From a virus, in IMG/VR virus record IMGVR_UViG_3300032160_001542, positions 1 through 37,078 of that record: a stretch of DNA of 37,078 nt, one strand, 5' to 3'. The notes under the pieces are model-generated. The model saw only the letters and a program-made list of their open reading frames with translations. It made no database searches and had not been told where the DNA came from. How positions within the stretch are numbered: the stretch's first letter is position 1; each line of letters begins with the position of its first letter. Made by a program: the position numbers and the translations under genes. This document shows positions 1-25,403 of the stretch, piece by piece.

Positions 1-792
1 ATGAGCACTCAACCGATCAATGTGCGACAGGTGGGCTATCCAGATTTCTGGCCCACTGTGCTGGAGAAGTACAAGAAGTTCTTCCTCGTGACGCAGGGTC
101 TCGGCCCGACCATTGACGACCTGTTCTCAGTCGCCCACGCCGAGCCATTCCACAAAGTCGGTCGTCACCTCGCGAAGATGGTTACCAACTCGGTCGGAGC
201 CGTACTCCTGTTGGGGATGAACGGGTACGGTATCGACGCAATCAAGGTTGCACGCACGATGTTCGAATCGGCTGTCACTCTGGCGTACCTCAGAAAGCAC
301 CCAGATGAGTTCGATAACTACCTCGATTTCCACTTCATCGTCGCAATGAAGCGGCATCGGTACATGGAGAAGCATGCCCCGCAACATCTCAAGCTGGAGA
401 CGCCGGAAGCCCTCGACTCCATCAACAAGGGATACGCGAGAGTAGTATCGCGTTTCACCGTCGACGGGAGAGTTCGAGGTCGCTGGAGCAAACGATATTT
501 CTCCCACTTATGCGCGGACGTAGGCCTTGAGAGTCACTATCTTTCCTTCTATGCTCTTGCTTGCAACATCACGCATGCGGACATCAGCGGTGTGATGGCA
601 CAGGCGGACCCGGAGCCGGAAGTATTGGACGTAGACCTTGCTCCATCGGAGCAGTTTTTGAAGGAAGCATTTATCACGGCACACGGCATGTTCGTGCTTG
701 CCGTCAGCGAATACATCGCGCTTGCTCGTCCCGAAAAGCAATCGGTTGCAGACAAGATACAGAGCGATTTCGATACAGCGTGGAAGAACTGA
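1..792 (+). CDS. DUF5677-like protein
   Basis: The 263-aa protein has the look of the DUF5677 family: a helical core with an MFESAVTLAYL segment (about residues 87-97), followed by a region rich in H, D and Y, and a second conserved helix near NITHADISG (about 188-196). The function of DUF5677 is unknown; members occur in bacterial chromosomes, prophages and defence-rich islands. The reading frame begins at the first base of the window with ATG, so an upstream start cannot be excluded. It is followed at once by tiny candidate ORFs and then by the deaminase gene on the same strand. Whether it belongs to the phage or to the flanking host DNA cannot be decided here. Confidence 0.72.
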   Translation: MSTQPINVRQVGYPDFWPTVLEKYKKFFLVTQGLGPTIDDLFSVAHAEPFHKVGRHLAKMVTNSVGAVLLLGMNGYGIDAIKVARTMFESAVTLAYLRKHPDEFDNYLDFHFIVAMKRHRYMEKHAPQHLKLETPEALDSINKGYARVVSRFTVDGRVRGRWSKRYFSHLCADVGLESHYLSFYALACNITHADISGVMAQADPEPEVLDVDLAPSEQFLKEAFITAHGMFVLAVSEYIALARPEKQSVADKIQSDFDTAWKN

Positions 793-898
793 TATGGACG
801 AAGCTCCCAAGCCAAACCTTTGCGGCTTCCAAGGCGGTGCAATATGACGATTTGTATTCACCTTTCTGGGGGCGGGTCAATCGTAACCGGAACCGTTC

Positions 899-1036
899 AT
901 GTTTGTGGCGATCGACAGGTCAGGACGTCCGCCATTTTTCTATAGGGCGGTAGGACAGTTCGCGGACAAACCAGAACTGGAAGGAATGCTTAACGACACC
1001 GCAGCGAAAACCTACAGTAAGCATCTGCTGAGTTGA
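899..1036 (+). CDS. possible 45-aa protein
   Basis: A short frame starts at ATG 899 and ends at TGA 1034. It encodes a polar protein with ordinary composition (RPPFFYRAVGQFADKPELEG in the middle). A weak GGAA lies just upstream. Two still smaller frames precede it, 794-847 and 844-945; they overlap each other by ATGA, and the second overlaps this one. I do not recognise any of them. The claim rests only on plausible composition in a gap of about 355 nt between two genes on the same strand, so the gap may simply be noncoding. Confidence 0.3.
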   Translation: MFVAIDRSGRPPFFYRAVGQFADKPELEGMLNDTAAKTYSKHLLS

Positions 1037-1148
1037 GAGTCTCTGGGCTAAATATACACATGAGTACCGTTCACCAATGTAACCTTGCTTCAGCGGCTCC
1101 CGGCCTGTCATGGTGAATAGTAACCGCCAACGATAGAGAGGTGCTTAC

Positions 1149-1706
1149 GTGCCTGAGGACGAATGTGCCACAGCCAAACCGACCAGACCAAACTGGGATG
1201 AATACTTTTTGAATATCGCCAAGGCTGTGTCCACGAAATCGAAAGACCCAAAGTGCGCTGTCGGCGCGGTAATTGCCTCATCAGACAAGGTTGTTCTGTC
1301 AACGGGCTTTAACGGCTTTGCGCGTGGCGTAGACGACGATGAAAACATTCTCGCAAATTCCGACGAGAAGATAAAGTTGATCTGTCATGCCGAGCAGAAC
1401 GCCATTGTGAACGCAGCCCGCATCGGTGTGTCTCTTCAAGGTGCGTCTATCTTTGTGACAAAGTTCCCTTGCCTTGCATGCTGCAACGCCATCATCCAGG
1501 CTGGCATAACCCTGATTCGTACCGACGACAACAAATACTGGGATGATGATCCGCTTGATGGCGATCACTCGCGCAAGAAAAGCATACTCCGACAGACATA
1601 TCTCAAAGTCGACGCTCCAAATCATCCCGACTACACACCAGACTTAAAGACCATCCGAATGAATCTCGGCCAACTAGGACAGTCGGAGAAGACGATTAAG
1701 TCTTAA
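1149..1706 (+). CDS. dCMP/cytidine deaminase family protein
   Basis: A zinc-dependent nucleotide deaminase, 185 aa. The zinc signature is complete: H80-A-E82 in CHAEQNAI and C108-L-A-C111 in FPCLACC. These supply the zinc ligands and the catalytic glutamate. The KDPKCAVGAVI segment (33-42) is typical of deoxycytidylate deaminases, which make dUMP from dCMP for thymidylate synthesis. It starts at GTG 1149 with AGAGAGG about 8 nt upstream; no better in-frame start exists. Phages often carry dCMP deaminases to supply dTTP, but no thymidylate synthase is visible here, so the exact substrate (dCMP or another cytosine compound) is inferred. Confidence 0.85.
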   Translation: MPEDECATAKPTRPNWDEYFLNIAKAVSTKSKDPKCAVGAVIASSDKVVLSTGFNGFARGVDDDENILANSDEKIKLICHAEQNAIVNAARIGVSLQGASIFVTKFPCLACCNAIIQAGITLIRTDDNKYWDDDPLDGDHSRKKSILRQTYLKVDAPNHPDYTPDLKTIRMNLGQLGQSEKTIKS

Positions 1707-2087
1707 GCGGGATACAGCTCCAGCCTCGTCCGCATCGTCAGCGCAAAACCGTCATCGTGATCAACATCACGTCTTGCTATCCAGCCTAGTAAGACAGCCC
1801 ACCTCTATCTCTGCTGGGCGGAGAACACCTTCCTCTCCTCCTCTGCCAGTAGGTATGTGTGTAGCACAGCATTCCGTTCTCTCACGTCCGTCCGATGAAG
1901 CATTTCCTTTACAAGTCTGAGCCTGATCTTCGTCAACAGAACTGTGAAAACAGACTTCGCATCGAGTATTGAACGATGAGCGCGGGCCGACTCCCGCCTC
2001 GTTTAGAACCGGATGCGGCGCTGGAAACCCGCTCTGACCCCCATCCATAGTTCTAGGAAAAATAGGAACCGAGGCTAGATATCCAAT
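1707..2087 (+). other. intergenic gap before the late operon
   Basis: I see no convincing gene in these 381 nt on either strand. The gap holds one small hairpin just after the deaminase gene (CGTGAT-CAAC-ATCACG, 1756-1771, no T-run). Its last 40 nt are A-rich and include AGGAACCGAGG, which supplies the ribosome site of the next gene. This is the natural place for a late-operon promoter, but I cannot pick out convincing -35/-10 boxes. Confidence 0.4.
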
Positions 2088-2483
2088 ATGACCAACTGGA
2101 ACCAGATGAAGGAGCAAGCCCGACTTCGCCAAGCCGCGAACTCGAAGGCTGCTCCCACGACGCCCACTAAGCCGCCACGCGGAACTCCCGCTAAGTCACT
2201 CCCGGCTCCTACCTCAGCCGATGAACTCCGCGCTCGCTTCGAGAAGGTGATTCTCGCTGAGGGCTACTCCGCTGAAGCCTGCGACGGGATTCTCGATGAG
2301 CACTTCGATAGCAAGCTGGCCGACATCCTGCGCGACGTCCCCAAGTTCGAACGCATGCTCGCTGAATACGAATCGCGCCAATCACATCGCCCTGTCACTG
2401 GCTCCACTGGCTCACAAGGCGCAATCGCCTCAACAGGTGTCACAGGTCCGACCGGAGCTACAGGCTCAGCGGAGAACGACTAA
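2088..2483 (+). CDS. phage protein with short collagen-like tail
   Basis: First gene of the packaging/head run, 131 aa, not recognised as a family. The N-terminal 45 residues are low complexity (Lys/Ala/Pro/Thr). Residues about 46-98 look like a small helical domain (DELRARFEKVILAEGYSAE). The last 30 residues become glycine-spaced (TGSTGSQG, then TGVTGPTGATG), close to a collagen Gly-X-Y repeat with one slip. Such short stretches occur on phage virion and fibre proteins. Its stop overlaps the start of the next gene (TAATG), so the two are probably translated together. Its position ahead of the terminase suggests a packaging-accessory or early structural role, which is inference only. Confidence 0.72.
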   Translation: MTNWNQMKEQARLRQAANSKAAPTTPTKPPRGTPAKSLPAPTSADELRARFEKVILAEGYSAEACDGILDEHFDSKLADILRDVPKFERMLAEYESRQSHRPVTGSTGSQGAIASTGVTGPTGATGSAEND

Positions 2484-2989
2484 TGGCTGAACTCACACAG
2501 GAGCAGATCGCTCTGCTTCAGAAGCTGGCTGCCGAGAGTAAAGGCGCGATGATCTTCATCAGCGGTTCTAGTGACACCAAGGCTCAGGGTGGCTACGTCG
2601 TTGACGTGGCTATGCCCGAAGGCGGACGTCAGACGTTCAGTCCGACGGACTTTCTCCGGATGTATCAGGACAGCCGTGACCGCTCTGCCAAGGGGCCGAA
2701 CTTCCTCGCCGCTCCATGTCCGCGTGGTGAAGTGTTCCACCTTCTGGAAGCGGCTGCTAATCCGCTGCACACGAAGTTGGACCACATCACGGAGAACCTG
2801 AAGTTCTTGCCGTACCACGCCATCTGTATCGACCTGATCCTTCACAAGCTGGGCATCACTGAGGCTGAGGTTGACGCTCACGGCGAGAAGCTGAAAGCGG
2901 AAGCGGACGCGCAGGAGAACGCCAACAAGCTGGAGCAGGCCATCGCGCAACAGGTGATCGACGACGCGGGCGGTGGAGCGCGGGCGTAA
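2483..2989 (+). CDS. uncharacterised phage protein
   Basis: A 168-aa protein I do not recognise. The start ATG overlaps the previous stop. The N-terminal half predicts a mixed alpha/beta domain (GAMIFISGSSDTKAQGG, then VVDVAMPEG). The C-terminal third is a charged Ala/Glu/Lys-rich helix (about 125-165) that could be a coiled coil. It lies in the pre-terminase block with genes of the same style on both sides, so it is probably co-transcribed with them. No catalytic motif is visible. Confidence 0.7.
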   Translation: MAELTQEQIALLQKLAAESKGAMIFISGSSDTKAQGGYVVDVAMPEGGRQTFSPTDFLRMYQDSRDRSAKGPNFLAAPCPRGEVFHLLEAAANPLHTKLDHITENLKFLPYHAICIDLILHKLGITEAEVDAHGEKLKAEADAQENANKLEQAIAQQVIDDAGGGARA

Positions 2990-3009
2990 TTCATTTTTCA
3001 GGAGCAATC

Positions 3010-3375
3010 ATGAGCACTCACAAGATCACAGTAGGTGGTAAACCGCTCGGCGAACTCATCCCGGCTGACGCTTCCAAGGTTGGCTTCTCCCGTCGTGGAG
3101 ATTCCTTCCAGTTGGATATCGAGCAGACGAAGACGTGGTCCACACCGGGAGTCATCAAAGCCGACTACCAGCAGGTCACTCAGACCACTCACTACCTTGG
3201 CCTGGACGGAACGCTGCAAGCCTCGTGTGTATACGAGAAGGACGCGGAGTTGGTGAAGCAGCCCATCAACGTCCATGACCTCCAGAAGGAACGCGAGCAG
3301 CTTGGGAGGCCGGAGCCGTCCCGCATCATCCACCCTGCGAGTGTACAAGCACCACGCCCGATCAAGATCAAGTAA
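3010..3375 (+). CDS. uncharacterised phage protein
   Basis: A 121-aa protein of unknown family. AGGAGC lies 7-12 nt before ATG 3010, a good ribosome site. The first 75 residues look beta-rich (KITVGGKPLGELIP, then SFQLDIEQTKTW). The C-terminus is basic and proline-containing. Its TAA overlaps the ATG of the DUF5681 gene (TAATGG), which ties it to the packaging genes. No known motif is seen. Confidence 0.68.
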   Translation: MSTHKITVGGKPLGELIPADASKVGFSRRGDSFQLDIEQTKTWSTPGVIKADYQQVTQTTHYLGLDGTLQASCVYEKDAELVKQPINVHDLQKEREQLGRPEPSRIIHPASVQAPRPIKIK

Positions 3376-3881
3376 TGGCAGACGAGACACCCAAGCCGAA
3401 GGGCGACCACCTGTTCAAACCGGGACAGTCTGGGAATCCTCTAGGCAGACCGCCCGGTGTGAAGTCGTCGCGCTCGAAGCGGCTCTCGCTATTCGGGCAA
3501 ATCTGGGGACGTGCTGAGGCTCCCGACGATTGGTTCGGCGACAGCCTGAAGCTGATGAAGAAAATGGCCATGACCGTGGACGAGCTGATCGCTCTGCGCG
3601 TCCGGTGGTGCCTCGCTACCAACGTCAAGTTCAACAACGCTGGCTTGCTCAAGGAAGTGATGGACCGCAGTGAAGGCAAGATTCCTCTCCGCGTGCTCCA
3701 CCGGGATGGCGAGGACGGTGAAGACGATCTCGACGATCTCACTCCTGAAGAACTCCGCGCTTACGTGCAAGGCATGGAGCGTCGCGCTGCGCTCGCGGCT
3801 GCGAAGGTAGAGCAAGAGAAACAGGCCGATCCCCCTCCGGCTCTAGCGGAGGGCAGTCCGAATGCCGAAACAAACTCCTAA
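3375..3881 (+). CDS. DUF5681 protein, probable small terminase partner
   Basis: The N-terminus has the DUF5681 signature FKPGQSGNPLGRPPG (residues 14-28), a short arginine/glycine motif found in phage proteins encoded next to the large terminase. The middle (about 35-105) is helical, and the tail is acidic (EDGEDDLDDLTPEE). Small terminase subunits recognise phage DNA and regulate the motor. The place immediately before TerL, with a 20-nt overlap of reading frames, fits that role, although no classical helix-turn-helix is obvious. The role is inferred from family and position. Confidence 0.75.
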   Translation: MADETPKPKGDHLFKPGQSGNPLGRPPGVKSSRSKRLSLFGQIWGRAEAPDDWFGDSLKLMKKMAMTVDELIALRVRWCLATNVKFNNAGLLKEVMDRSEGKIPLRVLHRDGEDGEDDLDDLTPEELRAYVQGMERRAALAAAKVEQEKQADPPPALAEGSPNAETNS

Positions 3882-24463: not shown

Positions 24464-24607
24464 ATGACCAAAGAACTCAGCACCAAAAAGGCGCTTGAAA
24501 TCATTTGTCCAACCTGTGGAGCCGCTCCGGGAGAGAAGTGCGAACTTAGTACGGGCCAACCCCGCACCGAGCCGCATCGCGACCGGCGATTGATCGCAAA
24601 AGATTGA
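24464..24607 (+). CDS. 47-aa phage-type zinc-binding protein
   Basis: A short gene: ATG 24464, TGA 24605. The protein has C16-P-T-C19, C26 and H38 in ICPTCGAAPGEKCELSTG followed by EPHRDRRLIAKD. This Cys-Cys-Cys-His pattern with GA-PG-KC and PHRxR is a known small zinc-binding domain common in phage and actinobacterial proteins. GGAG lies about 15 nt upstream, so the ribosome site is weak. A structured hairpin with T-run follows 55 nt later and probably ends its transcript. Role unknown, probably nucleic acid binding. Confidence 0.72.
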   Translation: MTKELSTKKALEIICPTCGAAPGEKCELSTGQPRTEPHRDRRLIAKD

Positions 24608-24963: not shown

Positions 24964-24979
24964 GCCGGAAGCTTCGGGA

Positions 24980-24996
24980 CTGTTACAGTTTGAAAT
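24980..24996. repeat. 17-bp inverted repeat, left arm
   Basis: CTGTTACAGTTTGAAAT; its exact reverse complement is at 25347-25363. The pair encloses the frameshifted membrane gene, and this arm ends on the first base of its stop codon. Confidence 0.8.
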
Positions 24997-25303
24997 TAGT
25001 GGCCGAATCGCCCGACGATGACACCTATGATGGTGCCGCCGATAACTCCCATGCCGATAATCGGCCCATAGGCTTTAGTGATGAGGGCGTCGGAGATGCT
25101 CAGTAGCAGACCGAAGCAAAGTCCGACTGCCCATCCCGGCCACGGCAAGCGGCTGCGCCGATGACGAATCCGATGCCAAACCGCGCGATAAACGCCGCAG
25201 TGATTGCCGTCTTCTTATCTGGAAAGCTCATCGGTAGCATGATTCCGACGTCGATGGCTCCGAACACCAACCCGCAGATGACGCCAAGCAGGACTCTGGA
25301 CAT
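24996..25303 (-). pseudogene. small four-helix membrane protein, frameshifted
   Basis: Reading from ATG 25303 (AGGAG 7 nt upstream) gives MSRVLLGVICGLVFGAIDVG, two to three membrane helices, then the frame derails near 25145 and stops at 25100. The neighbouring frame continues perfectly: WPGWAVGLCFGLLLSISDAL, then PIIGMGVIGGTIIGVIVGR, ending at TAA 24996. Restoring one base in GCTTGCC gives A-L-P-W-P-G-W, the expected join. The full protein would be about 102 aa and is like small conserved bacterial membrane proteins of unknown function. It is either a real 1-nt deletion or a sequencing error. It lies inside perfect 17-bp inverted repeats. Confidence 0.75.
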
Positions 25304-25346
25304 GCTTCACTCCTGTCAGGCGGGACACTAAAGCTACGGCCTGTGG

Positions 25347-25363
25347 ATTTCAAACTGTAACAG
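25347..25363. repeat. 17-bp inverted repeat, right arm
   Basis: ATTTCAAACTGTAACAG, the exact reverse complement of 24980-24996. It is itself flanked by 10-bp direct repeats GGCCTGTGGA at 25338-25347 and 25363-25372, 25 nt apart. The direct repeat edges share one base with each side of this arm. Confidence 0.8.
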
Positions 25364-25370
25364 GCCTGTG

Positions 25371-25403
25371 GAGAAAAAGAAAAGCCAGCCGGTTGGCTGG
25401 CTT
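25371..25403 (-). terminator. terminator for the leftward accessory operon
   Basis: AAGCCAGCC-GGTT-GGCTGGCTT (25382-25403) is a perfect stem. Read leftward it is followed by TTTTCTTTTTCTC. It lies 27 nt after the stop of the gene at 25430-25690. The overall design (stem plus TTTTCTTTTT) matches the other leftward terminator at 26687-26724. Confidence 0.85.

Follow-up and report, generated by a model that had tools for sequence, protein, structure and literature searches.

The 37,078-bp stretch of viral DNA analyzed here (hereafter, the window) encodes a large terminase, portal, tape measure and tail proteins and an integrase, and thus appears to come from a tailed, probably temperate phage. 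The segment of interest is delimited by two exact 17-bp inverted arms, namely CTGTTACAGTTTGAAAT at 24980-24996 (plus strand) and its reverse complement at 25347-25363 (minus strand), which measure 384 bp from end to end, in agreement with an initial sequence-only reading of this DNA. That reading also held that chance could hardly have placed such arms so close together. Indeed, the base composition predicts about 0.003 perfect 17-bp inverted pairs within 1 kb, and no second pair of this kind was found anywhere in the window. The possibility that a repeat surrounds a phage gene by coincidence, for which nothing speaks other than the missing target-site duplication (TSD) at this locus, can be practically dismissed given this expectation and is already refuted by the recurrence of the same gene and arms in a bacterial genome (see below). 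Among 2.9 million viral contigs, the exact 17-mer gave seven single matches in unrelated sequence, compatible with chance.

The ends and flanks of the bacterial counterpart indicate that the arms are parts of terminal inverted repeats (TIRs) which, in full, carry GGTA at the outer end. The left TIR (24976-24996, plus strand; GGgACTGTTACAGTTTGAAAT) differs by one mismatch from the family end GGTACTGTTACAGTTT and lies at the 3' end of the enclosed gene, with GGgA as its outer tip, whereas the right TIR (25347-25366, minus strand), at the 5' end of the gene, matches the left arm in its inner 17 bp and has an eroded, unrecognizable outer GGTA tip. As the initial reading noted, no TSD is apparent: depending on the placement of the tip, the sequences to be compared are TCTCCACA and either GAAGCTTC or CGAAGCTT. 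The 10-bp direct repeat reported next to the right arm, GGCCTGTGGA, is present at 25338 and 25363; its inner copy (25338-25347) overlaps a stretch immediately interior to the TIR, TCCACAG, that the window has in common with two bacterial elements described below (L011 and L056), and its outer copy (25363-25372) is flanking DNA.

The passenger gene (24996-25303, minus strand) encodes a small hydrophobic protein. The sequence-only reading took it to be an intact 102-codon membrane gene, which is not the case: the frame that starts with the ATG at 25303 runs into a stop at 25100 after 67 codons, and the remainder of the protein is encoded in another frame that ends with the TAA at 24996-24998, overlapping the arm by one base. 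Given that one base is missing near 25153-25159 compared to the intact L011 homolog, its closest relative, the window gene is frameshifted, unless the missing base reflects an assembly error, which is possible. Among the codons compared on both sides of the missing base, 31 changes between the two copies are synonymous and 5 replace a residue, which implies that selection acted on the gene during most of the period following the divergence of the copies. The leader (25304-25346, minus strand) includes, ahead of the ATG, a possible ribosome-binding site, CAGGAGTGAAGC, and is about 60 bp shorter than in L011, lacking an upstream stretch that is common to the loci L010, L011 and L012. Just outside the cassette, upstream in the sense of the gene, there is a terminator-like hairpin with a T-rich tail (25382-25403, minus strand). 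No sigma-70-like promoter was found in the upstream region, although such a scan says little for Acidobacteria.

In accord with the sequence-only reading, the open reading frames adjacent to the segment match no recombinase family; the integrase gene is located at the right end of the window, 10 kb away, and the window encodes no transposase of the IS1-like kind. A short reading frame at 24464-24607 (plus strand) with a CPTCG...C motif looks like a small zinc-binding protein. Fragments of a related tail gene were detected in one Acidobacteriaceae genome (G011), with at most 77% identity over 48 residues, which weakly suggests an acidobacterial host for the phage. A search for related phages produced no contig that covers the cassette locus.

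The same cassette and its gene in bacterial genomes

No significant matches to the passenger were obtained in Pfam, PHROGs or NCBIfam, nor among viral contigs and phage records. When bacterial genomes were searched with the two pieces of the passenger reading frame joined by an X, most of the homologs proved to be acidobacterial, and more distant ones were detected in Spartobacteria, Bacilli, Chloroflexi, Spirochaetes and Bradyrhizobiaceae; one match with 48% identity is encoded on a Gemmatirosa plasmid. The closest counterpart is locus L011 of Acidobacteriaceae bacterium palsa_199, where an intact, 94% identical gene lies between nearly identical arms. This 450-bp element starts with GGTATTGTTACAGTTTGAAAT, ends with AATTCAAACTGTAACAGTACC and is flanked on both sides by a perfect 8-bp TSD, CGGCATGA. 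Homology between the window cassette and that of L011 extends from TIR to TIR, apart from the approximately 60 bp of leader absent in the window; it ends at the TIR ends or a few bases from them, and the two copies have no flanking DNA in common. On the basis of L011 alone, a 2-bp TA duplication was considered, and this option was dropped once the GGTA tips and the 8-bp TSDs were recognized.

Immediately upstream of the L011 cassette lies a gene group (534-3879) in which two RepB/ParB-like genes come after a serine recombinase gene; this group is perhaps part of an integrative element, and the context differs from that in the window. A search of 130 genomes for the empty site of the L011 insertion gave no match besides the genome itself, and a scan for GGTACTGTTACAGTTT across the wider phylum detected, apart from L011, only single unpaired matches.

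The passenger gene is present in 24 of the 398 Acidobacteriaceae genomes sampled, and arms were found in L011 only. Because a single carrier has the arms, the gene is normally an ordinary one that was captured between TIRs. The small hydrophobic protein is encoded mostly by an ordinary, armless gene in soil bacteria of several phyla. This distribution bears on the suggestion that the gene is controlled by the arms, in the form of a long-range RNA duplex or an operator pair. If the whole segment were transcribed, both arms would be included in the RNA and could form the 17-bp pairing, and each arm in the window includes a near-palindrome, CTGTTACAG. Nevertheless, the gene is armless in 23 of its 24 Acidobacteriaceae carriers, the same arms surround other genes or nothing (see below), and no RNA family matched any part of the window. 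Since the pairing of the arms follows from the TIR architecture, no duplex needs to be invoked, and we consider regulation of this kind very improbable.

IS1-like elements with the same or related ends

A scan of 300 Acidobacteriaceae genomes for the core of the arms identified a 2,895-bp element (L056) that has the TIR GGTACTGTTACAGTTT at both ends and an 8-bp TSD, TATTTGTT. In addition to small passengers and a P63C-domain protein, it encodes a transposase whose reading frame is interrupted by one in-frame stop. The N-terminal part of this transposase is similar to the NCBIfam IS1 profile (E=1.4e-11; 44.7 bits, compared with a cut-off of 100), and the C-terminal part shows weak similarity to PF03400, DDE_Tnp_IS1 (18.5 bits, against a cut-off of 24.1). 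Furthermore, the bases that immediately follow the TIR of L056 on its inner side, GAAGTCCACAG, are similar to their counterparts in the window and L011, GAAATCCACAG. When the two flanks of L056 are joined, the resulting sequence has continuous matches in several other genomes; in one of these, L207, CATATCTGTTTGACC stands against CATATTTGTTTGACC at the junction. For an element that bears the TIR of the window, the comparison of L056 with L207 serves as a direct empty-site test. IS6 was also considered as the source of the TIR and rejected: none of the 14 loci, among those fetched, that encode IS240-type transposases scoring above the family cut-off has such ends.

Relatives of the transposase are encoded in 94 of 200 Acidobacteriaceae genomes, within elements whose TIRs conform to the pattern GGTAnTGnnnCAGTTT. 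When 150 genomes were scanned with this pattern, some turned out to carry many copies (in G029, 46 matches, compared to 0 with a reversed-pattern control). We examined 42 TIR pairs, chosen with the flanks unseen: a first set of 22 closely spaced pairs, of which 14 have an 8/8 TSD and 5 a 7/8 TSD, and 20 pairs from three high-copy genomes, with 7 and 5, respectively, so that 21 pairs overall are flanked by an 8/8 TSD and 10 by a 7/8 TSD. The TSDs of the sister copies grade from 8/8 to 4/8.

The sister elements, which are common in Acidobacteriaceae, span a wide range of sizes, from palindromes of 33-42 bp that consist of TIRs only, through elements of 0.1-1.2 kb without a detected transposase, to elements of 0.9-4.3 kb with a transposase and, mostly, passengers as well. 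In the palindromes (L057, 4287-4320; L059, 4214-4246; L163, L164, L166 and L175), the two ends stand back to back and several copies have TSDs of 8/8 or 7/8, as though a pair of ends could be inserted on its own or the intervening DNA had been lost; the TSD of the L057 palindrome is ATTCCCGC, and that of L058 is GATCCTCC. A close parallel of the window cassette is a 559-bp cassette (L113/L162) that lacks a transposase, encodes a single hydrophobic protein of 107 amino acids and is flanked by a perfect TSD, CAGGCTTC. Other passengers match the nSTAND/AAA ATPase, SLFN_AlbA_2, Clp protease, SDH protease, dCTP deaminase, NYN, OMP beta-barrel and P63C families.

Several IS1-like elements of 1.7-4.3 kb (L099, L159, L160, L162, L171, L173 and L174) carry STAND/AAA ATPase, Schlafen/AlbA_2, P63C, Clp-like or SDH protease and NYN passengers, and a small lysine-rich protein that ends with an AARW(K/S)-type motif recurs in several of them and in L056. 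TIR positions 8-10 are variable (TTA, GGT, GTG, TCT, GCT and others) but usually agree between the two ends of the same element, and may mark subgroups of end recognition. We found no earlier description of this acidobacterial group in open-access papers.

The TSDs produced by IS1 elements are about 8-9 bp long, and those of L011, L056, L099, L110 and others are 8 bp. The TIRs start with GGTACTG in L056 and L011 and with GGTAGTG in the sister elements, in accord with the GGnnnTG end attributed to the IS1 family (PMC6807381).

The recurrence of the arms also bears on the proposal that a site-specific recombinase flips the DNA between them to turn expression of the gene on or off. A single gene tightly enclosed by exact inverted arms, together with an integrase at the right end of the phage, would suit such a switch. 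However, no recombinase adjoins the arms, the integrase is 10 kb away, and the homologous arm pairs represent insertions flanked by 8-bp TSDs, within a transposon family whose members vary in size and content. Moreover, switching would do little because the gene is frameshifted. An invertible segment, which the sequence-only reading listed among its possibilities, therefore appears highly unlikely. By contrast, its guess of a small mobile cassette is borne out by the same gene and arms at an unrelated locus with an 8-bp TSD, by the transposase-bearing L056 and by the many sister elements. Of the checks that it proposed, the search for the same arms elsewhere recovered them around the same gene (L011), around other genes (L056) and, in the palindromes, around nothing, and an empty site was found for the L056 element (in L207) but not for L011.

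Nature and history of the cassette

Taken together, these observations make it very likely that the segment at approximately 24976-25366 is a mobile insertion cassette (MIC), that is, a passenger gene enclosed by IS1-like TIRs, without a transposase, in a probably temperate phage. It has two IS-type inverted repeats, with the same ends in L011 and L056; the passenger, a frameshifted homolog of a cellular gene, has no transposase inside the segment or nearby; and a transposase-encoding element, L056, possesses the same ends. A TSD, 'usually observed' with MICs (PMC3913671) and so not strictly defining, is missing at the window copy and is perfect (8/8) at the homologous L011 copy. Under this interpretation, a transposase of the L056 subfamily in an acidobacterial host would have recognized, in trans, the TIRs of the cassette and transferred it to the phage or a prophage, after which the window copy would have decayed and become inactive. 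The lack of a TSD, the eroded outer tip, the short leader, the frameshift and the terminator-like hairpin upstream all indicate inactivity, and the window copy probably does nothing.

A different route of entry would be passive, with recombination or aberrant excision bringing in host DNA that already contained the MIC. The absence of a TSD at the window copy and the mismatch of the outermost bases of the right arm to the TIR could be accounted for in this way, but the homology with L011 stops at the TIR ends or within a few bases of them and the flanks are not common to the two copies; besides, TSDs also fade by mutation, as illustrated by the sister copies with 8/8 down to 4/8. Passive acquisition thus seems unlikely, and we favor transposition of the MIC into the phage or prophage.

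Elements of both kinds, MICs and ISs with passengers, are already known, and this cassette is a new member. The described MICs include MIC231 of Bacillus cereus, found with IS231A and shown to move in trans, and the qnrD mic (PMC3913671). Like the window segment, MICs have IS-type TIRs around a passenger and no transposase of their own, and the window group resembles them also in the TSD of the sister copy (L011) and in the existence of an element with matching ends and a transposase (L056). Unlike MIC231, the window cassette has IS1-like rather than IS231-like ends, is phage-borne and decayed, and its movement in trans is inferred. ISs with passenger genes have been termed transporter ISs (PMC3129680). 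The likeness to the IS1 family extends over the GGnnnTG ends, the 8-bp TSD and the combination of an IS1-like transposase with passengers in L056, L099 and L160; the differences are that the window segment lacks a transposase and that the score of the L056 transposase does not reach the curated cut-off for IS1. An IS1 subgroup with long members, such as ISMhu11, is included in ISfinder. MITEs, which are described as devoid of coding capacity (PMC3733652), are similarly short, non-autonomous, TIR-ended and present in many copies, as are the elements of 114-211 bp in G029, G114 and G126, whereas the window cassette contains a recognizable gene. REP palindromes with RAYT transposases have been reported from Acidobacteria (PMC3733652) and resemble the sister palindromes in being short, in having GTAG near the end and in occurring in the same phylum; this assignment was rejected given that REPs have the tag at one end, in contrast to GGTA at both ends, 8-bp TSDs and an IS1-like rather than a tyrosine transposase here.

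With this analysis, an unexplained repeat becomes a defined element, and the findings suggest that acidobacterial gene cassettes derived from ISs find their way into phages. It is conceivable, although unlikely, that the GGTAnTGnnnCAGTTT elements constitute a general system that shuttles genes between acidobacterial chromosomes, integrative elements and phages, with some of the passengers serving phage or host defense. A single group of IS1-like transposases would then move many short cassettes in trans, with STAND/AAA ATPases, Schlafen/AlbA_2 and P63C proteins, Clp-like proteases, dCTP deaminases, NYN proteins and small membrane proteins as the passengers. The sister elements, which extend from TIR-only palindromes of 33 bp to passenger-bearing elements of 4.3 kb, represent a natural series for the study of the pick-up and loss of genes by transposases, in a dominant but poorly cultured soil phylum.
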